64,000 nt of DNA from positions 1 to 64,000 of IMG/VR virus record IMGVR_UViG_3300046004_000518; one strand, given 5' to 3'. Shown piece after piece: positions 1-44,539 of the stretch (the first letter of the stretch is position 1; every line of letters begins with the position of its first letter). Origin of the DNA: a virus. The position numbers were made by a program, and so were the translations under genes. The notes beneath the pieces are model-generated. The model did not search any database. It saw only the letters and a program-made list of their open reading frames with translations, and was not told where the DNA came from.

Positions 1-546
1 GTATTTAGGTGATTGATCTACTGAGGGTAATTTTTCTAGTGCTTGTTCGGCTTCTTCTATAGTTGGGCGATAGTGATACCCAACTTCAAATACTTTTTGT
101 GATTCCCACGGTGTTATCCTTAGGTCTCTACCATCGCTACGTTGACGTATTAATGACTCATATACCCGTTGATCATCTAATAGGATAGCGCCACCACGAC
201 CAATCTCTAGCGGCTTGCTGTAGCCAAAGCTCAAACACTGCATCTGTCCACTACGATACATACCTGTACGTAGTAATCTTGCACTATCCCATATCCGTGT
301 ACCAAGTATAGGATATTCTCCAACCCATTCATTATCGGGCACTAAACCATATGAAATGCCTAATTTATGCATGGTCATTGGCACACTAAGGTAGGTAAAT
401 GCCGTAAAACGACACCGTTTTACCTTGTCGTAACGTAGACACAGTTCTAGTGCATGTGTACATGAATCTGTCATAACAACAAAAGGTGCGCCCGTAAGCT
501 CACCTAATGCTCGTTCAAACTGGTATATTGGATCAAATGCTGACAT
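1..546 (-). CDS. DegT/DnrJ/EryC1-type PLP aminotransferase, 3' end outside window
   Basis: The first 182 codons are visible; the frame is still open at base 1. The N-terminal part reads GAPFVVMTDSCTHALELCLR, the substrate- and cofactor-binding start of sugar aminotransferases. The segment SFGYSKPLEIGRGGAIL around residue 118 carries the lysine (SKPL) expected to bind pyridoxal phosphate. This family transaminates keto-sugars or keto-cyclitols. The ATG at 544-546 overlaps the stop of the upstream glycosyltransferase gene as TAATG, so the two are translationally coupled. The HYRPTIEEAEQAL stretch near the window edge fits the family's later part. Substrate unknown. Confidence 0.8.
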   Translation of the reverse strand, partial: MSAFDPIYQFERALGELTGAPFVVMTDSCTHALELCLRYDKVKRCRFTAFTYLSVPMTMHKLGISYGLVPDNEWVGEYPILGTRIWDSARLLRTGMYRSGQMQCLSFGYSKPLEIGRGGAILLDDQRVYESLIRQRSDGRDLRITPWESQKVFEVGYHYRPTIEEAEQALEKLPSVDQSPKY

Positions 547-1643
547 TACTTAATATTCTTTAATAGTTCAGTTGCCGAAAAGAAATCATGATGTAAACTA
601 CGTGCCTGCTGTGGAACTAACTTAGCATATTCATCATAGTCAGTCATGAACTCTACAATCTTATCACATAATGCTTGCTTATTATGTAAGAAACTACTGT
701 AGGATTCAGTCCATTCACTAGGATAGCGCCATATCTCAGCATACATCTCTGTATAACTTAGTCTATCTGGTACCATTGGAATAGCATCAGTGAGTGCACC
801 TTCGTACATACTAATACCCAATGTTTCTTGTAGGTTGGCACTGAATACTATCTTAGCTTCGCCTAGTAAAGTATGATACCCTGCTTTTGTCAAGTTCTGT
901 TCTTGACATACAATCCATTCATACTGTGGTAGTGCGGCCGCAAGTTCTTTAAATATCTCAACCTGCTTCTCTGGTGCTACGCGATGTGGAAATAAAATCA
1001 AATCACGTTTGGTAGTCTTATAAGGTGTAATAGTTTCTGGCATATATTCCATAGGCCAACCACTGCGTACAATCTTATCTGTTAAGGTACCTGCACGTAG
1101 TTCTGCTAGGTCTTCATCAAACCACGGATTTTCAGTAGGATAATCATTTAATAGATTAGTAAAGAACATCTCGATATGAAAATCAGTGGCAAAGTAGTTA
1201 TAGTCAACTGCATGAAAGAAACTCTTTTCAGCATGTCTAACCCACGGAGCATCACCGATAAGACGTCCTAGGAAGTCTTGCGGATCATAACTGCCAGCAT
1301 GCCAAAGTGCATGTATAGTTACAGGAATACCCAGTAGCTCACTCATATATTTAAGATTGATGATGCCAGGATGCCATGCATCGGTAAAGATGAAATGATC
1401 TCCTTTGACAATCCTACCTTCTGTGAATAATCTTGCTATTTGCTCAACTTGACTAGCTTTGTAGATATTTGTGCCACCAAAGTTCAAGAAAGCACCCGGA
1501 GTAGTAGCCGCTGGGATATCATGAGGTCCTGCAATAACATAAACTTCATGTCCATGTTCCTCGAGCAACTTAGGTACATGAGACTTCCACTGTCCCGTGT
1601 ACCTAGTTTCGACTGCTTCTAGATCAACTAGATAAACAGTCAT
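546..1643 (-). CDS. Glycosyltransferase (GT-B-like, marine-myovirus type)
   Basis: 365-residue protein. I chose the ATG at 1643 (MTVYLVDLEAVETRY) because the preceding gene stops at 1645-1647, one base away; an upstream in-frame ATG would run through that gene. The N-terminal half (LLEEHGHEVYVIAGP) looks like a Rossmann acceptor domain. The C-terminal half (LILFPHRVAPEKQVEIFKEL, then NLQETLGISMYEGAL) looks like the donor-binding domain of GT4-like enzymes, with the Glu of the ETLG segment in the usual place. It probably transfers a sugar to phage DNA, a virion protein or a host glycan; the acceptor is not shown by the sequence. It lies between the DegT gene and small unknown genes in one minus-strand operon. 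Confidence 0.75.
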   Translation of the reverse strand: MTVYLVDLEAVETRYTGQWKSHVPKLLEEHGHEVYVIAGPHDIPAATTPGAFLNFGGTNIYKASQVEQIARLFTEGRIVKGDHFIFTDAWHPGIINLKYMSELLGIPVTIHALWHAGSYDPQDFLGRLIGDAPWVRHAEKSFFHAVDYNYFATDFHIEMFFTNLLNDYPTENPWFDEDLAELRAGTLTDKIVRSGWPMEYMPETITPYKTTKRDLILFPHRVAPEKQVEIFKELAAALPQYEWIVCQEQNLTKAGYHTLLGEAKIVFSANLQETLGISMYEGALTDAIPMVPDRLSYTEMYAEIWRYPSEWTESYSSFLHNKQALCDKIVEFMTDYDEYAKLVPQQARSLHHDFFSATELLKNIK

Positions 1644-1644
1644 G

Positions 1645-1875
1645 CTATCTACGTCCTTGATAGCCTGGAGTTTGTCCTTGTTGCTGACGCCATTGTTCAC
1701 GACGTTTGCGTTTTTCCTGCCATTCTTTGTACGCTGGGCTAACATACAAATCAGCCTCATCATACTTGATCATGTGGAAACGACAGTAGTTGCACCATGC
1801 ATCTAAATCGTTGTAGATTTGTCTTACTTCAGGCTTCATAGTAAGATACTTTTTAAGCCAAACTGGATTTGCCAC
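1645..1875 (-). CDS. Small basic protein, unknown function
   Basis: 76 residues, starting at GTG (1873-1875) with AAGGAG eight bases upstream, which decides the start. The protein is rich in aromatic and charged residues, contains NDLDAWCNYCRF in the middle, and ends in a basic Arg/Gln-rich tail (EKRKRREQWRQQQ). No family recognised. It stops one base before the glycosyltransferase ATG, so it is co-transcribed and probably coupled to it. Confidence 0.6.
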   Translation of the reverse strand: MANPVWLKKYLTMKPEVRQIYNDLDAWCNYCRFHMIKYDEADLYVSPAYKEWQEKRKRREQWRQQQGQTPGYQGRR

Positions 1876-1887
1876 GGAAAATTCTCC

Positions 1888-2316
1888 TTAAATAGTGACA
1901 GACTGCAAGGGACGAGTACAATTGTACTCAACGGAACATCCATTCTCGCCATCTTCGGATACTTCTATCCAAACATCGCGATTGGGATATTTTATAGCGA
2001 TTTGCATATACAAATCATCTGATATCATTTCACAACTCTTATAATCTAACTGTAATGTAGTATTTACATACAGTGCTTCTAACCAACGTTTAAATTGAAT
2101 AAATTCAATATCGCGGTCATTGTGCGTAACTTCAATTGCCACTCTAAAATGGAATATATGACGATGCGGTGATGCTAAAAAAGCAACATCTGCTAGTGTT
2201 GGTTCATTAGCCGCCGCAGGATAACAATGTATACCTTCACGTTGGAAAGTTACCCATATCTTTTTCTTGGCAGCCTGCATAACTCTATCTATTTGTTCAC
2301 GTTCTGCTTGTATCAT
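1888..2316 (-). CDS. Possible T-fold protein resembling QueD/PTPS
   Basis: 142 residues from the ATG at 2316, which overlaps the previous stop as TAATG. The layout resembles 6-carboxytetrahydropterin synthase: a first His in GIHCYPAA, a His cluster SPHRHIFHFRV where QueD has HGHSF, an acidic-aromatic DIEFIQFKRWLEALY where QueD has a D-F helix, then SCEMISDDLYMQI and VWIEVSEDGENGC where QueD has TSE and V-x-E-T. This is my reading of spaced motifs, not a proven homology. If right, it would act on pterin or 7-deazaguanine precursors and fits with the transglycosylase-like gene at 5972-7645. It may instead be a conserved marine-phage protein of unknown function. Confidence 0.45.
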   Translation of the reverse strand: MIQAEREQIDRVMQAAKKKIWVTFQREGIHCYPAAANEPTLADVAFLASPHRHIFHFRVAIEVTHNDRDIEFIQFKRWLEALYVNTTLQLDYKSCEMISDDLYMQIAIKYPNRDVWIEVSEDGENGCSVEYNCTRPLQSVTI

Positions 2317-2834
2317 TATTTGATCTCTGTATCTTGAGTATATTGATCCCAATAGGTAAATTTGTCCTTACCCATTAGACTTTGAAGGTGATGTGTCCAC
2401 ACACCGGGATTGGTAGCTCCCCATGTTATATCATCTAATTTAATTGTTGCATTATAATTAAGTTGATTGATATATGGTAATTTAACACTAATCATTGGCA
2501 CAAATCTAGCATATTCTGAATAACCACTCTCAATAACACCTTCGATGTGTTCGACTCCAAAATCTAATGCTACCCAAAAGCCTGCATCTAAACAGCCTTT
2601 GATAACTTCATCCCAGGCTGAATATTCTTCATTAGTTACTGCTTGAGGATTAAAACTTTGGCTAGTACCAAAATAAATTTGTGTTACCAGCTGTGTTCGT
2701 GCTTGCTCTAAAATTTCTGCCAACGGTGGAGTACCCACTACAAACAAAGTTTTCATACCATAACATATTGTATGCTCTACTTCATATCCTGTAAAATATA
2801 CTACTTCCTGACGTTCTTCTGTGTTTAATCCCAC
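2316..2834 (-). CDS. Conserved marine-myovirus protein, unknown function
   Basis: 172 residues. The GTG at 2832-2834 overlaps the end of the MDR gene by ten bases and has a GAGG about nine bases upstream. An internal ATG at 2756 lacks a ribosome-binding site and would remove the TGYEVEHTICYGMKTLFVVG segment, which looks like a beta-rich core. The rest alternates helix and strand (AWDEVIKGCLDAGFWVALDF, FVPMISVKLPYINQ). There is no radical-SAM CxxxCxxC motif, so it is not a standard QueE. Co-transcribed with the possible T-fold gene, with a TAATG overlap. Confidence 0.55.
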   Translation of the reverse strand: MGLNTEERQEVVYFTGYEVEHTICYGMKTLFVVGTPPLAEILEQARTQLVTQIYFGTSQSFNPQAVTNEEYSAWDEVIKGCLDAGFWVALDFGVEHIEGVIESGYSEYARFVPMISVKLPYINQLNYNATIKLDDITWGATNPGVWTHHLQSLMGKDKFTYWDQYTQDTEIK

Positions 2835-3721
2835 TTAATGTATCCTCTACTGTAGCCTGCTGGTCTATTAACGCCATCTGCAAATGCAGATTGCCACTCT
2901 GTCTTTCTATTATACGACTTTGTCCAGAACTTGTCAACAGTTAATTGACCAGAAGCAACCCAATCACGTGCTAACACCATTGCTTCATAAAAGCGTGGTG
3001 TGCGTGGGCTCGGAAAACTAATAGTAACAGCTTTCCAAATCAATTGTCCAAATGTTTGATTAATATGTTTGTCTGTACCAATAATAATTAATCCATTATT
3101 TGCAACACAGTCGCCTTGTAAGTAATCAGTGCGTTCAGTTAAGTCGATAATAACATCATAAACACCAGTAATTTCTTGAGATAATTTACCCTGCCACAAG
3201 TCTTGATTACTGCGGCCAATTACTGTGATATCAAACTCTAAATGATTAATTAACAAGGTGTTATACGCTACCCATGCAAGGAAGCCACTGCCCAATATTA
3301 ACAAGCGACGACCTTCACCAGCACGTTCAGCAACTTCGCGTAAGTTTTGATTTACTACATTAATACCACAAGCAACTGGTTCTAATATATATTTAGGTTC
3401 TGCTGCGGGCACACTAACATATTCTCGTGCCCTAACATTGTACATATCTGCATAAGCAGGTTCACCACGTGTGGCAACATAATCGCCAACTTTTACATCG
3501 GTAATATTAGCACCTACATTAGTTACTTGCCCAAGTCCTTCGTGTCCGTGCATACTAATAGGCAATGGACCAAACTCGCCCTGCATCATATCAATATCAC
3601 TACGGCATACTCCAGTTAAGACAGCACGTACTTCAATATCATCTGCTGTAATTGCTGGTTTATCCCATGCAATTTCACTGAATGTGCCCTTGCCATCTGT
3701 ACATAATAATTTTACTCTCAC
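2825..3721 (-). CDS. Zinc-type alcohol dehydrogenase-like protein (MDR superfamily)
   Basis: 298 residues, starting at GTG (3719-3721), which overlaps the SulP stop as GTGA. The N-terminal GroES-like domain shows TGVCRSDIDMMQG (catalytic-zinc Cys position) and HGHEGLGQVTNVG (GHE motif). The nucleotide domain contains RRLLILGSGFLAWVAYNTLL. Length is below the usual 340-380, mainly in the C-terminal half, and the structural-zinc four-Cys loop is missing. It probably oxidises or reduces a sugar or polyol using NAD(P). Neighbours (Gfo/Idh/MocA oxidoreductase, DegT aminotransferase, glycosyltransferase) suggest a shared sugar or cyclitol pathway. Confidence 0.75.
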   Translation of the reverse strand: MRVKLLCTDGKGTFSEIAWDKPAITADDIEVRAVLTGVCRSDIDMMQGEFGPLPISMHGHEGLGQVTNVGANITDVKVGDYVATRGEPAYADMYNVRAREYVSVPAAEPKYILEPVACGINVVNQNLREVAERAGEGRRLLILGSGFLAWVAYNTLLINHLEFDITVIGRSNQDLWQGKLSQEITGVYDVIIDLTERTDYLQGDCVANNGLIIIGTDKHINQTFGQLIWKAVTISFPSPRTPRFYEAMVLARDWVASGQLTVDKFWTKSYNRKTEWQSAFADGVNRPAGYSRGYIKWD

Positions 3722-4905
3722 GCAACTTCCTTTTTATTAACATGTTTCCAGTAATGTAACATGCTGGTTAATACAATTCCAATTAAAACTGCATACGCTA
3801 AGTTAAGTATAACAGTTAATATAGTCACTGTCAATATTAATATCATATCTTCTTTCGGTTGTGCTAATGTCAAACTTTTCCAATTGAATGTATGATAACA
3901 AACAACAAACATTACTCCAATTAGTGCCGCCATTGGTATATTCTCAATTACAACACTGGCAAATAAAATATAAGCAAGTATACACAATGATTGTACTATG
4001 CCAGCTAATCTGTTGAAACCGCCCGCCTCTAAGTTAATCACAGTTTGTCCAATCATTGCACACCCACCCATACCGCCAAACAATCCTGTAAGTAAATTAC
4101 CTGCACCTTGTGCCATACTTTCTTTGTTTGGATGAGTACTGCCGATTGGTTTGTGGTGATGTACATAATCATCAACTAATTGCGCTGTTAGTAAGGTTTC
4201 TATTAATCCAATAGCTGCAAGTATAAATGAATATGGAGCAATAATGGCTAGTGTCGCCCATGTAAATGGTACATCGGGTATATGGAAACTAGGAAATGCT
4301 CCGGATATAGTTGCAATATCCTTGACATAATGTGTATCTAGATTGAAAGTTAATGCTACCACAGTGGCTATAACAATGCCAAACAAACTAGCTGGCATAC
4401 GTTTAATAAGTTTTGGAGCCGCAACTACTGCTATGACTGTTAATAATATCAGTCCTGCGGTTGTGTATAATTGTTGTCCTTGTAGCCACACTCCGTCGGT
4501 TTTAAGCTGATGAAACTGCGCAATGAAAATAACAAGCGCAAGCCCGTTAACAAAACCAGTCATAACAGTTGAGCTAACTAATTTAATTAGTTTACCCATC
4601 TGCATGTAACCAAATGCCAATTGTATTATACCCATTAGTACAATACTAGCAAACAGATATTCCACTCCGTGAGTAACTACTAACGCAACAGAAACAACTG
4701 CCAGACTACCTGCGCCACCACTTATAAGTCCCGGCCTTCCGCCAAAAACTGCAGCCACTAATCCTAGTATAAATGCAGCATATAATCCAACCAATGGATT
4801 AACGTGCGCTAATAAAGCAAATGCCACTACCTCTGGCACCATGGCCAAACTAGTAGTGACACCTGCTAATGTATTTCTTAAAACAAAACTGTTTTTAGTT
4901 GACAA
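3718..4905 (-). CDS. SulP-family anion transporter without STAS domain
   Basis: 395 residues, almost entirely hydrophobic, with about ten to twelve membrane helices. The start shows the SulP signature (residues 9-45: LAGVTTSLAMVPEVVAFALL, then NPLVGLYAAF), followed by GGRPGLISGGAGSLAVV, the anion-binding turn. The middle carries LIGLIETLLTAQLVDD-like sequence and GLFGGMGGCAMIGQT. Bacterial SulP proteins usually add a cytoplasmic STAS domain, reaching about 500-600 residues; this one stops after the last helix. The family moves sulfate, bicarbonate or dicarboxylates; the substrate cannot be read here. A metabolic gene, unusual on a phage, embedded in a dehydrogenase operon. Confidence 0.85.
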   Translation of the reverse strand: MSTKNSFVLRNTLAGVTTSLAMVPEVVAFALLAHVNPLVGLYAAFILGLVAAVFGGRPGLISGGAGSLAVVSVALVVTHGVEYLFASIVLMGIIQLAFGYMQMGKLIKLVSSTVMTGFVNGLALVIFIAQFHQLKTDGVWLQGQQLYTTAGLILLTVIAVVAAPKLIKRMPASLFGIVIATVVALTFNLDTHYVKDIATISGAFPSFHIPDVPFTWATLAIIAPYSFILAAIGLIETLLTAQLVDDYVHHHKPIGSTHPNKESMAQGAGNLLTGLFGGMGGCAMIGQTVINLEAGGFNRLAGIVQSLCILAYILFASVVIENIPMAALIGVMFVVCYHTFNWKSLTLAQPKEDMILILTVTILTVILNLAYAVLIGIVLTSMLHYWKHVNKKEVA

Positions 4906-4906
4906 A

Positions 4907-5785
4907 CTATTCTACTTTCTTATGAATCCACAAATCGTAGTCTAATTGTACACTAAACCAAGCATCGTTGTCAATGTTTTCGACAGCATCTTTAATCATT
5001 GCTTGATATGCTTCTGCTGGGCACAATCCTAATTCAAAGCGTTCTACTGTGCCATCTGCCATATGAAAGTTAATACCACGATCATCGTCAGTTAAACTGC
5101 GCCAGTCTGCTATCAATCTCCACTTACGGTTAGGTTCTTCAAATATAAACTCACATAAATCATCTACATCATATATACCATCTGCTTTAACTGTACCATA
5201 TTCAGTATCCGATACTTCTGCTAATGTATAACGTTGTGCTACGTTGTAATGAGTTAGTGATGGCTTAGTATAATCATCGCTAAGTGCTATGTAAAGACTT
5301 AATAAATGTGTCATTAAATCACGACTAACACCACCATATGCTAAGTCTTTAGTTGTAAACCAAGTACCTGGACCAGGAACGCGATTGCGATTAACCCAAT
5401 TAAGTTCTACTTTAATACTACGTTGCGCAAGTGCTTGCAATTCTGCAATATTTTCACGCCATTGATTGTTTTTAACCATCATAAAGCGTGTGTACGGAAA
5501 GTCCTTAACTAACTGTTGCCAAATTTCTGAAGTTTTAACACCTGGCTTTTCAATGAATACAAGTTTAGCGTAAGTAGCAACTTCTCTTGCTATTGTTTCG
5601 TGAGTAAAGTTTGGAGTACAAATATGTACGGTATCAAAATATTCGTGCGCCGCCACTGCATCCTTTACAGATGTAAAATCTGCCTTGCTGGGATCAAGGT
5701 CAACTGTCACAATTTCGTGATCTAAGTTAGTTAGTACTTCTTTGTACAGGTTACCAATACCCATACCTACGATTAAACTTTTCAT
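4907..5785 (-). CDS. Gfo/Idh/MocA-family NAD(P)-dependent oxidoreductase
   Basis: 292 residues. It begins MKSLIVGMGIGNLYKEVL, a Rossmann GxGxG-type nucleotide-binding turn, followed by HEIVTVDLDPSK, an acidic residue at the end of strand two that suggests NAD. VHICTPNFTHETIAREVA and LVFIEKPGVKTSEIW match the family's conserved CTPN-x-H and EKP motifs. The C-terminal half is the substrate beta-sheet domain. Members oxidise inositols, glucose or UDP-sugars. It overlaps the next upstream gene by four bases and lies two bases from the SulP gene. Confidence 0.8.
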   Translation of the reverse strand: MKSLIVGMGIGNLYKEVLTNLDHEIVTVDLDPSKADFTSVKDAVAAHEYFDTVHICTPNFTHETIAREVATYAKLVFIEKPGVKTSEIWQQLVKDFPYTRFMMVKNNQWRENIAELQALAQRSIKVELNWVNRNRVPGPGTWFTTKDLAYGGVSRDLMTHLLSLYIALSDDYTKPSLTHYNVAQRYTLAEVSDTEYGTVKADGIYDVDDLCEFIFEEPNRKWRLIADWRSLTDDDRGINFHMADGTVERFELGLCPAEAYQAMIKDAVENIDNDAWFSVQLDYDLWIHKKVE

Positions 5786-5971: not shown

Positions 5972-7645
5972 CTAGTCCTCCAATCCTGCTTCTAGGTTAT
6001 TAAGATTTGTTTCGTCAAAGCCGCTATCGTCTATGTGATGTTCTTCTTCAACTTCGGGCACTGCCACTTCTTCAAAGAATTTACCAAAAGTAGTGCTGGT
6101 ATTCATAGTTTTCTTACCAACCGCACCACGCGAACCTGGAATACTCATCCAATATTGATTGTAATGTTCTATCATTGCTTCTGCATCTGCTCTGTTATCA
6201 ATAGCAAATATAGCATCAACAATATCTCTAAAGTAGATTAAATCATATGCCCTGTGTGACTTTTTATCGGCAGTAATTGCTGACATCATAGCAGGACGTA
6301 TACCTTGATCATATTGTCTATTTGCTTCTTGCACACTAGTTAAATGACTCCAAACATTATGACCCATTTGTATGGCATAAGCAAAGCTATCCCAACTAGT
6401 CTTACCAACCTTGTTAATCTTATTAAGTGCAGGCGGCGTGCTATAATGATCTTGATTAGTTACATCAAATGGTTCACCGTTTAATTCTGCAGCAGTTTTA
6501 CGCACACCATCGTGATAAACACAAACATCATTAATTTTAATACGTGCGCTAATAGGACTTTCAGTAAAAGATTTAAATTTACCATCTTGTAACACAGCAT
6601 CACGGAAACTACGTGTATCTAATGCATACTTCTTATTGTCCACACTAGGTACCATACGGTATACCCATTTCTTACCATCTTCAACTTCAGTTTGCGTATA
6701 AATTTGTCCGTTTGCACTAGCAAGGAATGGACTTGCACAGTCAAAGCTGATTGTAAATTTAGGATTATGATACTTACGTACAGCACGTTGAATGTCAGTT
6801 AATAAGCATGCCCACTCTAGTTTACTTGTACCCAAGAAGTGCATCCAATCATGTAGACCTTCTTCTAATAAACCATCGAAACGTAGGGCAACAAGTCTGC
6901 GCAATACCAAGTGTACATCACACATGTTCTGTCCACCCATAGCCCAGCCATTAAAATGACGACCTGGATACTGTTTAGGATCACAGTACTTCTTCATACG
7001 ATCATACCAATCGTCTGCATCTGCATGATTCTCACCTTGCAGTACGTTTAAAAACTTACAGTTACCATTGCGATTGTTAATAAACCAATCGTTATTAATA
7101 TAAGTGCCTTGTACAGCTTCTTCGTATGTATTAATACCAGTTGCTTTGCGACCATTTGGACTACGAGCTACCCAGGCTGGAATATCTAAACACATACCAT
7201 AGTCCATGTATGCATCCATCCAAGTTAATACTAGCTCACGTTTCTTTTGCGCTTTGGGACAGTTTGGATTCTTCCAATCTCCTTCCCAAACACCTTTACC
7301 AATTTGGAAACCACCAGAGTCGCCTAGGATAAAACTACGACTACGATCTCTATTACGAACCATATCTTCTTTTGGGCTAAACTTATTAACATCTAACTCT
7401 GCATGCCCTGCTGAATATAAACTCCAATGATATGGGAAGTATGCAGCATCTGGATTGAGCCAATTAAGTCCTTCGATACCATTTTCAAAGTCTGCTGGCA
7501 TACGAGTAGAATCAACATATAATCCTTTTACAGGATCTGGAAATCGTTGCTTGCCCACATAAGTAGCATAAAAGCCTGATAGTGCAGGTAAAAAGACTGC
7601 ATAGTCTAGTTGTTTTGCGGTTAAATTATCTATTTCATGTGCCAC
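5972..7645 (-). CDS. tRNA-guanine transglycosylase-fold enzyme, DpdA-like candidate
   Basis: 557 residues with the TGT active-site series in order: FILGDSGGFQ (Asp109, proton-transfer Asp of TGT), MCLDIPAW (Asp154, base-recognition position), FLNVLQGENH (Gln203-Gly204), GWAMGGQN (Gly237-238) and ISFDCASPF (Asp302, at the nucleophile position of FDCVLPTR). The zinc motif CxCxxC of bacterial TGT is not visible, and the protein is about 180 residues longer than TGT (about 370-390). TGT swaps guanine for a 7-deazaguanine in tRNA; DpdA does so in DNA and is known on phages. The lost zinc region and extra C-terminal domain favour a non-tRNA substrate, but this is inference. It overlaps the upstream gene by 11 bases. 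Confidence 0.75.
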   Translation of the reverse strand: MAHEIDNLTAKQLDYAVFLPALSGFYATYVGKQRFPDPVKGLYVDSTRMPADFENGIEGLNWLNPDAAYFPYHWSLYSAGHAELDVNKFSPKEDMVRNRDRSRSFILGDSGGFQIGKGVWEGDWKNPNCPKAQKKRELVLTWMDAYMDYGMCLDIPAWVARSPNGRKATGINTYEEAVQGTYINNDWFINNRNGNCKFLNVLQGENHADADDWYDRMKKYCDPKQYPGRHFNGWAMGGQNMCDVHLVLRRLVALRFDGLLEEGLHDWMHFLGTSKLEWACLLTDIQRAVRKYHNPKFTISFDCASPFLASANGQIYTQTEVEDGKKWVYRMVPSVDNKKYALDTRSFRDAVLQDGKFKSFTESPISARIKINDVCVYHDGVRKTAAELNGEPFDVTNQDHYSTPPALNKINKVGKTSWDSFAYAIQMGHNVWSHLTSVQEANRQYDQGIRPAMMSAITADKKSHRAYDLIYFRDIVDAIFAIDNRADAEAMIEHYNQYWMSIPGSRGAVGKKTMNTSTTFGKFFEEVAVPEVEEEHHIDDSGFDETNLNNLEAGLED

Positions 7646-7976
7646 TTTGTTCTTCCTCGTATACTAGTGCTTCTATTATTTTATATTGCTCGTAAGCGTG
7701 TTTAAGTGATGGATACTTCTCTAGTTTAGCCTTAAGCTCGCGTTCTTCTGCCATCTTTTCACCGGCCCAACGTATAGCTTCATCAGCAGTCCAACTTAGC
7801 CCGATACTAGCATTTTGACTAATGTTAATCCACATATTACCGTCATATACTTCCATTTGCTGTGTCATAGTATTGTAGCGCACATTACCAGCACTCTGTC
7901 CATTGTTGCCAATGTACGGAGCACTGTAGGAACTGCCAGTCAAATGTGGACTAGTAATATCTAAATTTTTAATCAT
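7635..7976 (-). CDS. Hypothetical protein, structural-like N-terminus
   Basis: 113 residues. The first half (SGNVRYNTMTQQMEVYDGNMWINI-like pattern, with an aromatic W after NGM) resembles short beta modules at the start of phage structural proteins. The second half is helical and charged (AGEKMAEERELKAKLEKYP). It overlaps both neighbours slightly, by 11 and 8 bases. Function unknown. Confidence 0.5.
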   Translation of the reverse strand: MIKNLDITSPHLTGSSYSAPYIGNNGQSAGNVRYNTMTQQMEVYDGNMWINISQNASIGLSWTADEAIRWAGEKMAEERELKAKLEKYPSLKHAYEQYKIIEALVYEEEQSGT

Positions 7977-8598
7977 AAAATGTTATCTCATTGATTAATT
8001 TATAGTCATCTGCATATACTTCTTTTAGTCTATCAATCAATTTTGTATCTTGATCTAATACAGCCTTGAGAAAATTTACTAATTTTTTGTGTTGCGGGTT
8101 GTCATCTAATTCAATATCTACACTGATATTTAGGTTTATATTATGTTCATGTAAATATTTTTGTAATGATTCGCCGATGCCGTGAACTCCATTAAAGTAT
8201 ACACAAGATTCTTTTGGTATTGTATTAATAAAGTATAGTTGTTTTTCGGTATGGTCGTCAAATATTACTCTATCAAATATTAAAGATTCCATTACTGGAT
8301 TCCAGTTATCGATAATAGTGTCTGCTGTATAACCCTGACTGACTATGGCTGAACAAAGGTATTGCGCCATTCCGCTAATCCATCTACTAACAGGATCACG
8401 CAATACTACAATTATTTTCTTATTAGTTAAATCAGTTTTTAAAAAATTGGCAACTTTCCAATTGTTAGCTAATACCAGTTTACCAATATAACTGCTAGAA
8501 TTCTTAGGAATCGGAATATAAACTACATCTTCGGTGACAAACATGCCACCTGGAACAAATCCTCTAGCGGTGTATTGATTAAACCAGTAGGCAATCAT
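7969..8598 (-). CDS. Sulfotransferase-like P-loop protein
   Basis: 209 residues. VYIPIPKNSSSYIGK near residues 26-40 matches the 5'-phosphosulfate-binding loop of carbohydrate sulfotransferases (PK-x-SSS), and IIVVLRDPVSRWISG near 62-77 matches the 3'-phosphate-binding motif (RDP-x-R-x-S). Together they indicate a PAPS-dependent sulfotransferase fold. The acceptor is unknown; a phage or host glycan is possible. It ends 8 bases into the next gene and begins one base after the sliding-clamp stop. Confidence 0.7.
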   Translation of the reverse strand: MIAYWFNQYTARGFVPGGMFVTEDVVYIPIPKNSSSYIGKLVLANNWKVANFLKTDLTNKKIIVVLRDPVSRWISGMAQYLCSAIVSQGYTADTIIDNWNPVMESLIFDRVIFDDHTEKQLYFINTIPKESCVYFNGVHGIGESLQKYLHEHNINLNISVDIELDDNPQHKKLVNFLKAVLDQDTKLIDRLKEVYADDYKLINEITFYD

Positions 8599-9330
8599 TT
8601 ATTTGCTTTGTGCAGGTAAAATATAGTTGTAAGTTGCCATGCCGCTATCAACAGTAATCTGTGCTGCACCTTCATCACTAATACGGAATGTTTTATCACC
8701 TGGCAGGTTAAGAATACTAATAACTGCCGCAACTGGCCATGACCACCCTTTAGTTAAAGTACCAGCAACATCGCTTTGGAATACAAAGTTACCAGCATGA
8801 CTACTATGATCACCAAAGAACAATTTTAAGTCAGTGCCTTCTGTTTTAGCAGTAAACGTAGTTTCGTCACTGTTAGCACTTGCTTGGAATTTTAAACGTA
8901 AAATGTTAGCAACTGTTGGTTGGAACTCAACGTTCCACTTAACACCTTTAAACTTAACTGTTTTAAGTTTGTCATTGACAATTTCTGAACTCATAAAACG
9001 ATAGTCATTTTTAAAGTCGCCTGCTTTGTTTTCAAAGTGTAGGCCTACCGGAACTGATTCACCATTGCGATCTTGTCTAGTTAATGAAATCTTAGCATCG
9101 TCTTTGTATTCTGGAATGTTAAGGATAGTGTTTAGTTTGCCTAAGTTTGGCATACCAAATGTACCAACAAACTCTGGCACTGGATTGTTTACTTTTGCCT
9201 GTACAATAACTGAACGATCTTCAGCAATTGCTTCGATGCTTGTTTCTGTATCTGTGCCTGTTACCTTAACTAGGTCAATAATACCCAGTCCGTACGTATT
9301 TTTAACGATGTCTAATAAATGATCACGCAT
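8599..9330 (-). CDS. 45: DNA polymerase sliding clamp (T4 gp45-like)
   Basis: 243 residues, close to T4 gp45 (228). It starts with a helix (HLLDIVKNTYGLGIIDLVKV), then shows PEFVGTFGMPNLGKLNTILN and KDDAKISLTRQD, the clamp's central helix-strand pattern (compare L-x-G-x-L-x-L-V-x-D-D-A-E-I). The C-terminal half repeats the beta-alpha-beta layout (PTVANILRLKFQ, PVAAVISILN) and ends in a beta-strand MATYNYILPAQ. It forms a ring that holds gp43 on DNA and, in T4, activates late transcription. It sits just downstream of gp43 with its own promoter at 9360-9388 and SD AGGAGAAC before the ATG. Confidence 0.75.
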   Translation of the reverse strand: MRDHLLDIVKNTYGLGIIDLVKVTGTDTETSIEAIAEDRSVIVQAKVNNPVPEFVGTFGMPNLGKLNTILNIPEYKDDAKISLTRQDRNGESVPVGLHFENKAGDFKNDYRFMSSEIVNDKLKTVKFKGVKWNVEFQPTVANILRLKFQASANSDETTFTAKTEGTDLKLFFGDHSSHAGNFVFQSDVAGTLTKGWSWPVAAVISILNLPGDKTFRISDEGAAQITVDSGMATYNYILPAQSK

Positions 9331-9402: not shown

Positions 9403-10659
9403 TTATTTTTCAATTATGGAGCCTAATACCTGATGCGCTTTTGATGTGGTAAGTATTCCAAATTTTTGAGCAGTTATCAGTATAGATATATTTTCTGCCA
9501 CGGCTAGTTCGTTTGATGATAAAATAGTATAACCCAAGCGATTGAATAGTTTTTCTAAAATCAGGTTGATTGTGTAATTAAAATATTTTTTATCATCTGT
9601 ATTGTGCAAAAACTGCATATTGCATATTAACTTGCCACCAGGCCTTAATAACTTGTTAAACGTAGCAAGTAACTGTTCGATAGTTGATAGATCAAATAAG
9701 TTTAAAAAATTACAACAGGTAATACAACCAAATTGTCCCTGCGGCAATATAGAATAATCGTTATCAACCGTGTATACTCTTAATCGTTGTACATATTCGA
9801 TTGGGTAATTATCAAGTAACGCAGAAAGATTATCGTTGTTGGGGCGGTTTACTACATACAACGGATCTGCGGTAACCATACAATCAATCCATTCTTTTGA
9901 ACTAGGATTAATTTGTAATCCGGGATAGTGCCAGTCGCAGTGTGATCGAATAGTTAACAATGTTAAATTTAATATATGTTTATCGTCGGGCAATATATCG
10001 GGCAATAAACATGTTTTTATAAATTCTTGCTGATACTCTTGAGAATTACACAATTCATTTATTTTAGCTATGGCAATCGATTCTGATAATTGCAGACTAA
10101 CAGTGTTGATATTATTATCTATATTTTTAATTAATGCCCATAGAAAATTAATACTAGCATTAAGAATTTTATTATTTGTTATTAATAAATTATCGGCACT
10201 TGTTCGAATTAATTGATTTTGTTGTTTATCTAATTTTCGACTATCTTTCATCAACTGTCGATTTTCAGTTAATAATGTTCGTCTAGTCTGATCTAATATT
10301 CGACAGTCATTATCTATTCGTCGACTTTCGGCAAGTAATGCTCGACTTTTCTTTAATTTTTGCTGGCGCAGTACTTCTAACCGTTGACTTTCTTTAATTA
10401 ATTGTTGGGCTCGGTTAACCTTTTGCCGACTCTTAGTGGCCATTTGTTGATTAATTTTAATTCGTGCATAATTGGCGGTATCAACAGCTCGACTGCGTTG
10501 ATCTCGATAATATCTTGCAATTTCCTGATATATTACACTGTCGGGCCCCGATGATTCTGCTAATTTATCTATATCTTCTAAACGAAAATGATCGATTATA
10601 CTAGTCAGGGTTTGTTTACGTGCAAGTAATTCATCTAATTGTTTTTGAATATCATTCAT
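9403..10659 (-). CDS. Coiled-coil protein with C-terminal methyltransferase-like domain
   Basis: 418 residues in two parts. Residues 1-190 form a long heptad coiled coil with a striking run of short repeats in which S-R/Q-x-L/I-D/E recurs (ESQRLEVLRQQ, ESRRIDNDCRIL, DSRKLDKQQNQL). Residues 195-418 resemble a class I SAM methyltransferase: YVQRLRVYTVDND as the acidic strand-two end, FGCITCCNFLNLF as the motif IV position, and LNKLLRPGGKLICNMQF as the post-motif strand. The glycine-rich motif I is weak, so activity is uncertain. It overlaps the gp43 stop by one base. Confidence 0.55.
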   Translation of the reverse strand: MNDIQKQLDELLARKQTLTSIIDHFRLEDIDKLAESSGPDSVIYQEIARYYRDQRSRAVDTANYARIKINQQMATKSRQKVNRAQQLIKESQRLEVLRQQKLKKSRALLAESRRIDNDCRILDQTRRTLLTENRQLMKDSRKLDKQQNQLIRTSADNLLITNNKILNASINFLWALIKNIDNNINTVSLQLSESIAIAKINELCNSQEYQQEFIKTCLLPDILPDDKHILNLTLLTIRSHCDWHYPGLQINPSSKEWIDCMVTADPLYVVNRPNNDNLSALLDNYPIEYVQRLRVYTVDNDYSILPQGQFGCITCCNFLNLFDLSTIEQLLATFNKLLRPGGKLICNMQFLHNTDDKKYFNYTINLILEKLFNRLGYTILSSNELAVAENISILITAQKFGILTTSKAHQVLGSIIEK

Positions 10660-13322
10660 TAATCAAAACTAAACAATGCATCAAATGTAGTCTTAATGTC
10701 TGTGCTTTCGGTAATATTCCAGTTTAGCACACCTAGTAAGTTTTCTACTTTTTGATCAACGATTGTTGACTCCATTAAATCATTATCAAATGGCAGGTCT
10801 TTGAACCATTGCGGAATATGAGTTCCATCTGTTGGATAGCCTACACTAGTAAACCCAATTGGATTATCCTTTAACTTGCACACAATAGTTTTCATGCCAT
10901 CGACAATACTAATTGAATAGTTATCACCATGCATACGCTTTAGGTTATTCCAATTCATAGCCGCACGTACATGCCCTGGCATATTAGCACGACCTTCACG
11001 TTCTTCTGCTTTGGTAAACTTGGTTAGATTGTTTACACGTTTAGGCGTGCCTTTCTCCCAAGCTGGCCTATCTTGGAACGCAAGTTTAAACTCACGTACC
11101 ATATCAATAATAGCAGTCTTATCTACACCAGTAAGTGTCGCTAGTAAAATATCACTTAAGAAATCTTGCACAACCTTAGGAGTATCGGAACGTTTTAAGT
11201 CTAAGCCCATGGCTTTAACTTTACCCGGCTTGCCATGTGTATCCATTCGCTTGCCATCTAAGTCTGTAATCAGCACAGCATACCGTTTCTTCTTAATAAA
11301 CAAACCTTTACTTGCAACCAACTCTCGCCCGCCTTTAATTACACTACCCATTTCACGTGGTACATGAAACGCACGTTCCATCATAGCTGGAAAACTTTCA
11401 TTAACTTGGTCTGAAATATCATCGTACAGTTTAATAGCAATACTAGGATTCCAATCCATAGTACCAGCTTCGACTTCATCTTTAATCATAGGCCAAGCAC
11501 TAAAATAACAGGAGTCGGTATCACCATATATAATGGCATCGCCTGTGTGATCATACACACCTGTCAAGCATTCATTAATAAACGCATCCATGTGCTTGGC
11601 AATAGTACGACCGGTGAGTGTAGTTGATTGTCCAATCCGCTTATCAAAGAAACGACAGCCCGGATTAAGTAGCGCACCATACAGACTGTTCAAGTTAATC
11701 TTCTTAACCAACTGTCGTTTATCCCAGAACGCAATCTCTTCTGGGTCAGTACATGAACGCATCTTAGCCTGTAGTTCTTTACGTTCAGCATACCAGCGTT
11801 TTAATAAACCTGGGACAACTGCTTCTTTCTCAAAACTAAAGATAGTACCGTTGGCACTGAGTATCCAAGGTTGATTACTATCGAATATCAACTTCCATAC
11901 TTCGGCCGCACTGTGTACAGTACTTTCACCAGAAGTTTCCCAATCGATTGTAAGCTCGATGCCGGGTTTACTTTCCATAACCGCAGTATACTCCAGGGTA
12001 GCGAACAAGCCCTCCCAAGCATCTGCGAAACTTGACTTATTAGCCATCTTTTCATTGATGTAATGGTCGGTCATGATAGGACGTATCTGTCCAATAATCG
12101 ACTCTGGCCCCATGTTTAACGCACGAATTGCACTTGGGTATAGTGAGTTAATATCAACTGACCCAATCCAATCATGCATGCCTGCTTTAGGAGTTGCTAC
12201 ATACGCACCTGCCGCTTGTGTATCGCCCATGTCGTCTCTGTTTTTACGATTAGGAACAATTAAGCCTTGTTGATGTGCTTGGTTAATAATAGCCTGTTCA
12301 GTAACTGCCACAGCACCCATAGTTGTTTGTAGCAACACTGTGTTGTCATGTGCTAGTTCGTTGGCTAGGTCTAAGAAGCGTAGTTTCTTATCTAGTTTAC
12401 CTAGCAACATAGTATCCTGACGGTTATAGTCAATAAACTTAGGAAAGTCTTTGTTGTACAATTGATCCAATGTACCTTCATAAGCAACCTTGCGCTCATC
12501 TAGTTCATATTCACCGATAGCATCCAAACTATAACTATGTCGTTCTTCATAGGTATATTTACGGTATAGTTGCATGTAGTCTAAATGCACCCTGCCAATC
12601 AAGTCAAAAGTGATGTTTGCGGCGCCAAAACGTTCAAATTCACGCTGTTTTGGGTACTGACCCCATAGACAAAAGCGTCTAGTGTCATCTTTACTTAACA
12701 CACGTGTAACACGCCCAATAGTATATGGAATATCATAGCCTTCACTGTTCCAGCCACTTAACACATCTGCATCATCGATTAGATTAAGGAATGTATCCAA
12801 CATGTCTGCTTCACGTTCAAACATAAAACAGTTTTCATATTGGTCGCATATTTCTTGCGCAGTTTCCCAACTATAGCTCTTGGGCGGAATAACAAGTGTA
12901 ACTAACTTGTCTAGCCAATCTAAGTAAACTGATATGGCTGTGATAGGATTGAATGGATCGCTGGTAGGAGCATACCCACGTGCTGGGTCAAAGTCTGTTT
13001 CAATATCCCAAAACGCAGTTTGTAGTTTAGGTGAATCGACACCAAGATAGTTATCTGATAAACAACGGAATACAGGATTGATATCACTTTCCCATATCCG
13101 CTTGCCTGATTGAATACGTGTCTCTTTATGAAATTCTTTACCTATACGAGTGCTGAATCGACTTACTGGAGTGTCGTATACAGTACGATACTTGCCTTTA
13201 GGATCGTCCATGTACATGACATAATTTGCTGGATACTCGACATACTCACGTATACCTTCTTTTCTTTCTACTACATAGATGCGATCTTTTGCTCTATCGA
13301 ATAATGCATCGACGTATGAAAT
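10659..13322 (-). CDS. 43: DNA polymerase, family B (T4 gp43-like), likely AUU start
   Basis: All family B motifs are present: Exo I WDIETDFDP, Exo II GWNSEGYDIPY, Exo III YNRQDTMLL, Pol A VDINSLYPSAI, Pol B KKINLNSLYGALLN and Pol C YGDTDSCYF, so both proofreading and synthesis should work. The first ATG in frame (13217) cuts into conserved-looking N-terminal sequence; the frame continues upstream (ISYVDALFDRAKDRIYVVER, then EGIREYVEYPANYV) to a TAA at 13335-13337. No ATG, GTG, TTG or CTG lies in that stretch. A full SD, AAAAGGAG, ends six bases before an ATT at 13320-13322, which I take as the start (887 residues). A start at 13217 would give 852. Confidence 0.9.
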   Translation of the reverse strand: MSYVDALFDRAKDRIYVVERKEGIREYVEYPANYVMYMDDPKGKYRTVYDTPVSRFSTRIGKEFHKETRIQSGKRIWESDINPVFRCLSDNYLGVDSPKLQTAFWDIETDFDPARGYAPTSDPFNPITAISVYLDWLDKLVTLVIPPKSYSWETAQEICDQYENCFMFEREADMLDTFLNLIDDADVLSGWNSEGYDIPYTIGRVTRVLSKDDTRRFCLWGQYPKQREFERFGAANITFDLIGRVHLDYMQLYRKYTYEERHSYSLDAIGEYELDERKVAYEGTLDQLYNKDFPKFIDYNRQDTMLLGKLDKKLRFLDLANELAHDNTVLLQTTMGAVAVTEQAIINQAHQQGLIVPNRKNRDDMGDTQAAGAYVATPKAGMHDWIGSVDINSLYPSAIRALNMGPESIIGQIRPIMTDHYINEKMANKSSFADAWEGLFATLEYTAVMESKPGIELTIDWETSGESTVHSAAEVWKLIFDSNQPWILSANGTIFSFEKEAVVPGLLKRWYAERKELQAKMRSCTDPEEIAFWDKRQLVKKINLNSLYGALLNPGCRFFDKRIGQSTTLTGRTIAKHMDAFINECLTGVYDHTGDAIIYGDTDSCYFSAWPMIKDEVEAGTMDWNPSIAIKLYDDISDQVNESFPAMMERAFHVPREMGSVIKGGRELVASKGLFIKKKRYAVLITDLDGKRMDTHGKPGKVKAMGLDLKRSDTPKVVQDFLSDILLATLTGVDKTAIIDMVREFKLAFQDRPAWEKGTPKRVNNLTKFTKAEEREGRANMPGHVRAAMNWNNLKRMHGDNYSISIVDGMKTIVCKLKDNPIGFTSVGYPTDGTHIPQWFKDLPFDNDLMESTIVDQKVENLLGVLNWNITESTDIKTTFDALFSFD

Positions 13323-43277: not shown

Positions 43278-43349
43278 AATAGTTATTATATGTGAAAAAA
43301 GGAGAATTGTCAAGCTCTCCTTTTTATTTACTATCAAAATTACATATGG

Positions 43350-43586
43350 TTAAGTTTTCTTTCTACGTAACGGTCTATTTGGATCTACAGCCACTGGTTC
43401 AGGTGCAACTTCAGTTTCCTCAGCAATTTCAACCATTTCCTGTCCCACTGCTATTTCTGCAATCTCAAAAGTTTCAACAACCGATTCGACTGTCTCGGCT
43501 ATTGGCTGCGCATCTGTCGGACTACTTTGGCTTAACCAGACTGGTTCTGAAGGACTTGTTACAGGGGTGTCCTCAAACCCTGTTAC
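43350..43586 (-). CDS. Minus-one frame extension of the holin (programmed frameshift product)
   Basis: 78 codons in the -1 frame directly after the slippery site. The upstream limit in this frame is a TGA at 43595-43597, and no ATG, GTG, TTG or CTG start occurs before the middle of the frame. The peptide is Pro/Glu/Val-rich (TPVTSPSEPVWLSQSS, ETVESVVETFEIAEIA) and ends basic (NRPLRRKKT). Such regular composition points to translation. A frameshift from the holin gives a 174-residue product with an acidic cytoplasmic or periplasmic tail. It ends 73 bases before the DnaJ-like ATG. Confidence 0.6.
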   Translation of the reverse strand, partial: VTGFEDTPVTSPSEPVWLSQSSPTDAQPIAETVESVVETFEIAEIAVGQEMVEIAEETEVAPEPVAVDPNRPLRRKKT

Positions 43587-43592
43587 TTTCCC
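43561..43592 (-). promoter_or_regulatory. Programmed -1 frameshift site: GGGAAAG slippery heptamer plus hairpin
   Basis: GGGAAAG (43586-43592) read as G-GGA-AAG, immediately before the holin stop TAA. Two bases later, ACAGGG (43578-43583) can pair with CCCTGT (43561-43566) around an 11-base loop. The same heptamer drives the lambda G/GT frameshift (known). The spacer of two bases is shorter than usual. Confidence 0.6.
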
Positions 43593-43873
43593 GCATCACC
43601 GTTTTCAATTGATGCTACTTTTTCTTTACCACGTGTCCAAGCTGCAATACCTAAGATAGCACCCATGGAGATATGGTACAAACCACCACCTTGAAGTGTT
43701 AGCGGTACCCACATACCTACTGCCTGTCCAGGATTCCAATATTGAAGTAAGTTGAATAAGATTGGACCTAAGATAAAGTCAAACCAAATTGTAGCCATGT
43801 ATGTAATAGCCATTAATGGGCGCCATTTGCTGGTCATCCAATCTTCTGATTTTTTTTCTGCTGCTGTTACCAT
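43583..43873 (-). CDS. Holin-like membrane protein (3TM type)
   Basis: 96 residues. SKWRPLMAITYMATIWFDFI (WRPL motif) resembles the three-membrane-segment holin family of gene-transfer-agent type. Hydrophobic segments lie at about 17-45 (GPILFNLLQYW follows) and 62-80 (LYHISMGAILGIAAW). The stop lies on the slippery site, so part of the ribosomes may extend it. Strong SD (TTAGGAGC) before ATG and a late box at 43903-43910. Likely controls endolysin access to the cell wall. Confidence 0.65.
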   Translation of the reverse strand: MVTAAEKKSEDWMTSKWRPLMAITYMATIWFDFILGPILFNLLQYWNPGQAVGMWVPLTLQGGGLYHISMGAILGIAAWTRGKEKVASIENGDAGK

Positions 43874-43902
43874 TTTTTGCTCCTAATTATTATTGTTATT
43901 AT

Positions 43903-43910
43903 TATTTATT
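43903..43910 (-). promoter_or_regulatory. T4-like late promoter box AATAAATA
   Basis: AATAAATAATAATAAC on the minus strand, 29 bases upstream of the holin gene. Confidence 0.55.
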
Positions 43911-43919
43911 AGTTTGTGA

Positions 43920-44129
43920 TTAACTTACTGCGCTGGCTAGATCAATTAAATCATTAATTATTTCGTTTAATTGACTTAATTTTGCTAGATCACCGGCCGC
44001 TGCTTCAATAACTTTAGTGCTTTGTAAATCTTTAAGTAATTCTTTATATTCACTCGGCGATAGCTTACCAGCTGTAAATTCTGCTTCTAATGCATGTACT
44101 TCTATTAATACATTGTCTACACTGCTCAT
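43920..44129 (-). CDS. Small helical protein in lysis cassette
   Basis: 69 residues, all helical: VLIEVHALEAEFTAGKLSPSEYKELLKDLQSTKVIEAAAG. The central segment resembles SHOCT-like short helical-hairpin modules (K-L-S-x-x-E-Y-x-x-L-L). Overlaps the lipoprotein gene by four bases. Function unknown. Confidence 0.5.
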   Translation of the reverse strand: MSSVDNVLIEVHALEAEFTAGKLSPSEYKELLKDLQSTKVIEAAAGDLAKLSQLNEIINDLIDLASAVS

Positions 44130-44539
44130 CTTGGTTTGGCTCCTATTACTGTTTTCATTGTACCTGAACTATTTTCTATATTATTAAATTTAAGTTCGCA
44201 GTATTTTTGACTCACAACTTCGCCGCTATCGTAACGCTCTTTGAGACCTTTGGTAATAGCTGCAAGTTCTGTAGTCATTGTTATTGTATCTTTATTTTGT
44301 GGAATACTTGCTGAATAGTTACGTAGTTCAATACTCTTAACATAAACGGTGTCTACATACACTAGCACTTCTTTAGTACCACATTTAGTTACACCTACTT
44401 GTGCTTGTGTATGGATTTGATTAACTAAACTATATTCGTTGCTGTCAAACCTAGCCATACGATACGCATCAATTATTGTACTAATACTAGCACACCCCGA
44501 CAATAGAACTACTAGACTAACTAAGGCTAGTTTTTTCAT
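44126..44539 (-). CDS. Lipoprotein of the lysis cassette
   Basis: 137 residues. Signal peptide with lipobox LALVSLVVLLSGCAS (Cys16 lipidated). The body holds VGVTKCGTKEVLVYVDTVYV and a second Cys near the C-terminus (KYCELKFN), possibly a disulfide pair. Overlaps both neighbours by four bases. It may be a second outer-membrane component besides the o-spanin, or an adhesion/superinfection-exclusion lipoprotein. Confidence 0.6.
   Translation of the reverse strand: MKKLALVSLVVLLSGCASISTIIDAYRMARFDSNEYSLVNQIHTQAQVGVTKCGTKEVLVYVDTVYVKSIELRNYSASIPQNKDTITMTTELAAITKGLKERYDSGEVVSQKYCELKFNNIENSSGTMKTVIGAKPR

Follow-up and report, generated by a model that had tools for sequence, protein, structure and literature searches.

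Insertion by DpdA and DpdA2 and resistance to restriction have been described in other phages (Hutinet et al., 2019; PMC6884629), and dPreQ0 is present in the DNA of nt-1, a DpdA2 phage (PMC6884629). The same study raised the possibility that Mycobacterium phage Bipper, which has no QueC, carries the substrate of that enzyme. The DpdA1 of Enterobacteria phage 9g is a protein of 317 aa whose gene lies beside a sliding clamp, together with folE, queD, and queE; this phage has Gat-QueC and makes G+. DpdA2 (Vibrio phage nt-1 YP_008125322, KVP40, ACP17, X1, and BUCT-ZZ01) is a phage enzyme of 416–464 aa with the tRNA-guanine transglycosylase (TGT) fold. Two more groups, DpdA3 and DpdA4, are reportedly DNA transglycosylases of phages or viruses as well.

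Here we have analyzed a stretch of 64,000 nucleotides (the window), the left portion of an IMG/VR virus fragment of 110,477 bases (IMGVR_UViG_3300046004_000518), which encodes at 5972..7645 on the minus strand a protein of 557 aa with a GTG start codon. Taken as a whole, the evidence is best explained, with a probability of roughly 0.85, by a DNA guanine transglycosylase of a new DpdA subfamily that inserts a base derived from 7-carboxy-7-deazaguanine (CDG). As a working name we use new DpdA-type subfamily; by sequence it is set apart from DpdA1 and DpdA2, the two DpdA groups with which it was compared.

Catalytic residues, fold, and phylogeny

As the initial annotation had stated, the TGT catalytic positions are all present: DSGGFQ (residues 109–114), DIPAW (154–158), LQG (202–204), MGG (236–238), and FDC (301–303). 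This is borne out by the TGT profile and by an alignment of 27 diverse family members from the phage and bacterial branches, in all of which D109, S110, G111, G112, F113, and Q114 are invariant, and likewise D154, P156, G233, G238, H269, L271, and D302, with Q203 and G204 kept in 26/27. The letters of the MGG motif are not fixed (AFAG in PA5oct, SLAG in Phosso), G238 being its sole constant position. DSGGFQ, D154, QG, G238, and the nucleophile D302 align in register with the TGT of E. coli. Fold and catalytic residues are what the family has in common with the bacterial and human tRNA-guanine transglycosylases, but it differs from them in zinc motif, length, and clan. Neither CxCxxC nor CxxC occurs anywhere in the 557-aa protein, which therefore does not contain the tRNA-TGT zinc site (CxCxxC...H), and it exceeds the 375 aa of E. 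coli TGT by 182 residues, in agreement with the missing cysteine motif and the excess of about 180 residues noted earlier.

Single-sequence searches (phmmer against the PDB; Pfam, PHROGs, and NCBIfam models) matched nothing, nor did a profile search of the PDB. The AlphaFold model (pLDDT 81, pTM 0.82, with residues 505–557 of low confidence) matched TGTs at ranks 1–27 when compared by Foldseek with the PDB (best 1p0d, E 8.2e-6, probability 1.00, TMt ~0.5), and the DpdA2 of Vibrio phage nt-1 was among its matches to viral models (E 1.6e-9). Since single-sequence hhalign was equally weak for DpdA2 (E 0.003) and for E. coli TGT (E 0.001), we collected diverse TGTs and compared profile with profile. 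By this approach the broad family profile was linked to DpdA2 with E 4e-11 and to a 15-member TGT profile with E 8e-7, and D109, D154, Q203-G204, and D302 stand opposite the TGT catalytic positions. The likeness to DpdA2 is not a chance one, as the best of 60 decoy profile comparisons gave E 0.026 vs 5e-8 for DpdA2. The sequence link to DpdA and TGT appears only with diverse profiles, the narrow family profile (A2) giving E 0.02. BLAST shows no link between DpdA2 and the window family, and the DpdA2 HMM reaches only the members of Vibrio phage 2.275.O (E 4e-4) and of one bacterial locus (L224, E 8e-4). The DpdA1 of phage 9g had no detectable sequence link to the family (hhalign E 0.2), and family profiles A1 and A3 matched nothing in the record of Campylobacter phage CP220, which we take to be a DpdA3 phage.

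In a maximum-likelihood tree that took in 15 tRNA TGTs, the family, DpdA2, and the TGTs each formed one clan (99/98, 100/99, and 100/99, respectively). The family falls outside the DpdA2 and TGT clans and nearest to DpdA2, on whose side it lies with midpoint rooting. It is a separate clan, neither DpdA1 nor DpdA2, although the branches are long and the sister relation to DpdA2 is for this reason provisional. With DpdA2 it shares, in register, the motifs DSGG(F/L)Q, M.(L/F)D..P, QG, H.LG, and ISFD/ISYD. The predicted structure and the profile comparisons, along with the tree and the operon context (see below), thus support the TGT fold and the DpdA-like role put forward in the initial annotation, which had proposed a phylogeny with the DpdA groups as a check; the refinement is that the enzyme belongs to a clan of its own.

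Pathway genes and the shared operon

The window contains no folE, queE, or queC, as had been noted, and close relatives indicate where the pathway lies. IMG/VR contig G008 (locus L003), with a transglycosylase 98% identical to that of the window, is syntenic with window positions 1–20,641 (85–95% DNA identity over aligned blocks). The counterpart of the first window base is G008 base 44,153, and the G008 folE is located at 43,335–44,036, followed by genes for a SnoaL-like protein, a phosphoribosyltransferase, a radical-SAM/B12 protein, QueE, and QueD. The window lacks folE, queE, and queD because the record ends ~117 bp before folE; in the syntenic relatives all three are present beyond the window edge and queC is not there. 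Of the earlier idea that preQ0 would come from the host or from genes outside the window, the outside genes have been found, whereas phage-made preQ0 has become less likely with queC absent in nearly all carriers. For this reason the gene content makes a CDG-derived inserted base more likely than a phage-made preQ0.

FolE, QueD, and QueE models matched in 13 each of 20 family-bearing records, and QueC exceeded the cut-off in a single one, Vibrio phage 2.275.O; the carriers with no folE, queD, or queE match are fragments. The family is therefore genomically associated with 7-deazaguanine biosynthesis genes, one of the marks of a DpdA in the functional sense. The annotation of PA5oct gives the mark ESI-MS/MS to both folE and queD, which lie at 168–170 kb; its queE, at 227 kb, is 3 kb away from the transglycosylase. 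In Vibrio phage 2.275.O, folE, queC, queF, and a YhhQ-type transporter gene adjoin the family copy, and a glutamine-amidotransferase-like gene accompanies QueC and QueF. Some pathway proteins have peculiarities of their own. In a cluster of 12 phage QueE proteins (including L170:9205-10065) an insertion of ~35 residues, between the second and third radical-SAM cysteines, splits GCNF.C from GCDSYASW, and PA5oct encodes a second PTPS-family protein besides QueD (L184:7502-7972).

Two genes of the window accompany the transglycosylase in QueC-less genomes. The first (1888..2352, minus strand) encodes a protein of 154 aa (alignment A4) with a QueD-like (PTPS-like) T-fold, whose AlphaFold model (pLDDT 89.6) matched only QueD/PTPS structures among its top 21 PDB matches in Foldseek (best E. 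coli QueD 4ntk, E 1.6e-4, TMt 0.72). Its kinship to QueD is predicted from this fold search, the hhalign comparison not being significant (E 0.028). The paralog shares with E. coli QueD the T-fold and three conserved histidines (H42, H63, and H65), likely zinc ligands by analogy with QueD. However, the CxxxHGH cysteine motif of QueD is missing and the protein is carried in addition to a true QueD; lacking this motif, it is unlikely to be another carboxy-tetrahydropterin synthase. The second gene (546..1763, minus strand; alignment A5) encodes a glycosyltransferase-like protein of GT4/GT-B type, an identity suggested by the Pfam model Glycos_transf_1, which 16 of 24 members match weakly (best E 1.1e-4); a PDB profile search found no glycosyltransferase match. 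Among 19 QueC-less transglycosylase records the paralog is present in 18 and the glycosyltransferase-like gene in 16, and neither is found in the four QueC-positive phages compared (2.275.O, nt-1, 9g, and CP220). Three records lack the glycosyltransferase-like gene; in two of them the paralog sits at the contig end, so that the missing gene may lie beyond it.

Canonical DpdA2, too, is flanked by the paralog and the glycosyltransferase-like gene in three phages with the folE/queD/queE operon. The profile-confirmed orders are QueD-FolE-hyp-DpdA2-glycosyltransferase-paralog-QueE in Acidovorax ACP17 (small ORFs omitted), glycosyltransferase-DpdA2-paralog-QueE in Xanthomonas X1, and QueE-phosphoribosyltransferase-hyp-QueD-FolE-hyp-DpdA2-paralog-glycosyltransferase in Synechococcus BUCT-ZZ01. 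PA5oct has transglycosylase-glycosyltransferase-paralog-hyp-hyp-phosphoribosyltransferase-QueE, its first three proteins being QCG76197, QCG76198, and QCG76199, respectively, and in Phosso the paralog and the glycosyltransferase-like gene adjoin folE and queE, with the transglycosylase 170 kb off. Eight further phages have the paralog close to folE, six of them with QueC unmatched; the remaining two are Vibrio D479, with a partial QueC match over the cut-off, and X1, with one below it. Given these arrangements around DpdA2, the window family fills the DpdA position of the same operon, and this replacement is the strongest functional argument. A QueC-less operon with the paralog and the glycosyltransferase-like gene, common to two transglycosylase families, is new here and points to a distinct final base. 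The operon phosphoribosyltransferase was located at L170:12105-12653, L082:13952-14386, and L206:2456-2917, and in BUCT-ZZ01 it is annotated as of xanthine-guanine type.

Other neighbors are conserved as well. An ORF at 2316..2834 (minus strand), with no Pfam match, is linked to the transglycosylase on the same strand in 33 of 47 scanned loci. Upstream are a sliding-clamp homolog (8599..9330, minus strand; phrog_12062; 46/47 loci), whose family matches the Phosso protein annotated as "DNA polymerase III sliding clamp beta" (E 1.3e-45), and a family B DNA polymerase (10659..13217, minus strand; phrog_262, E 1e-184; 45/47 loci). The polymerase is closest to those of the jumbo phages Phosso (51% identity) and Atu_ph07 (46%), so that the 110-kb record is probably a piece of a much larger genome. 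At the other end is a partial DegT/DnrJ-type aminotransferase (1..546, minus strand) truncated by the record end. Besides this DegT-type gene, a Gfo/Idh/MocA oxidoreductase, an ADH_N protein, and a weakly sulfotransferase-like ORF are scattered among the modification genes (window 1–5785 and 7969–8598) and may represent a sugar or surface-glycan cassette inserted in the operon. A SulP family permease, unusual in a phage, is encoded at 3718–4905 on the minus strand (Sulfate_transp E 6e-46; BicA bicarbonate transporter model E 5e-46).

Proposed mechanism and competing readings

In the mechanism that we propose, Asp302 would attack C1' of guanosine in the phage DNA and guanine would leave, to be replaced by a free 7-deazaguanine base, which Asp109, Asp154, Gln203, and Gly238 would hold. 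The base would be made as CDG by the phage FolE, QueD, and QueE, and since most carriers lack QueC the phage itself would not convert it to preQ0. CDG might be inserted unaltered, or after tailoring by the QueD-fold paralog and possibly by the glycosyltransferase-like protein. The paralog is a candidate CDG decarboxylase or could tailor CDG in some other way, a role recalling that of an enzyme reportedly named DpdL; the glycosyltransferase could put a sugar on the base or serve something unrelated, and the phosphoribosyltransferase may recycle the released guanine to GMP. As the gene set appears to make a replacement base without the usual last step, the carriers probably hold an unusual guanine substitute, which may shield the phage DNA from bacterial defenses, the modified DNA being expected to resist guanine-dependent restriction.

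It is possible, if rather unlikely, that the enzyme inserts preQ0 (or preQ1/G+) and that phage FolE, QueD, and QueE only boost CDG for a host QueC to finish. Known DpdA1 and DpdA2 insert preQ0 (PMC6884629), hosts may have a QueC that could act on phage CDG, and 2.275.O pairs its family member with QueC, QueF, and the amidotransferase-like gene. However, three separate lineages (the freshwater phages, PA5oct, and Phosso) have retained folE, queD, and queE with queC absent from all of them, and all three carry the paralog and the glycosyltransferase-like gene that the QueC-positive phages lack. A more elaborate form of the CDG reading, in which CDG from FolE, QueD, and QueE would be processed by the paralog, inserted, and then glycosylated by the linked glycosyltransferase to leave a sugar-bearing 7-deazaguanine in DNA, a guanine hypermodification so far unreported, seems to us doubtful.

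That the protein is a phage tRNA-guanine transglycosylase rewriting wobble positions of host or phage tRNA is very improbable, in spite of its TGT fold and complete set of TGT catalytic residues. The zinc motif is missing, the clan is separate from the 15 tRNA TGTs, the gene adjoins those of the clamp and the polymerase and stands in for DpdA2 within the same operon, and a canonical TGT is already present in 14/14 bacterial genomes searched that have a member of the cellular branch. We have rejected a tRNA modification role on the grounds of clan, zinc motif, and gene context. Hardly credible is a TGT-fold protein that binds bases but no longer exchanges them, as a structural or regulatory factor, for which one could cite the ~180 extra residues, partly modeled with low confidence (505–557), but against which stand the invariance of the catalytic Asp residues even in members only 25–37% identical and the biosynthesis genes that travel with the transglycosylase.

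Spread in phages and bacteria

Returning to the DNA guanine transglycosylase reading, we propose that the family is a widespread, so far unnamed branch of the enzymes by which guanine in viral DNA is exchanged for 7-deazaguanine. Relatives turned up in at least 598 IMG/VR stretches. Among isolates, tblastn found only 11 PA5oct-like records, Sinorhizobium phage Phosso, and Vibrio phage 2.275.O, all with the member annotated as "hypothetical protein"; for the proteins of 2.275.O and PA5oct, the IMG/VR scans brought up no close relative. The carriers include the P. aeruginosa phages PA5oct, Callisto, and Paride, the last of which is known to kill dormant cells (PMC10761892). A function can in this way be proposed for a large family that no tested profile library detects, the gene of these three phages included, and a modified guanine is predicted in all three, cultured as they are; the papers on them contain no mention of 7-deazaguanine and no nucleoside data.

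The search has also brought to light a bacterial branch, often associated with integrases. Its members (415–483 aa) are located in contigs of Sphingobium, Sphingomonas, Sphingopyxis, Limnohabitans, Polynucleobacter, and others, and at the loci of this branch proper the phage-built models matched no folE, queD, queE, or queC within ~8 kb. The branch is possibly a mobile DNA modification or defense element. At many of the loci (L216, L219, L221, L222, L225, L226, L231, L232, and others) integrases are often nearby, and there is either a co-directional protein of ~555–604 aa directly upstream or a divergent one of ~518 aa, neither with a credible Pfam match. At L232 (7965-9351), in a Pseudomonadales contig, the family member is broken into two ORFs.
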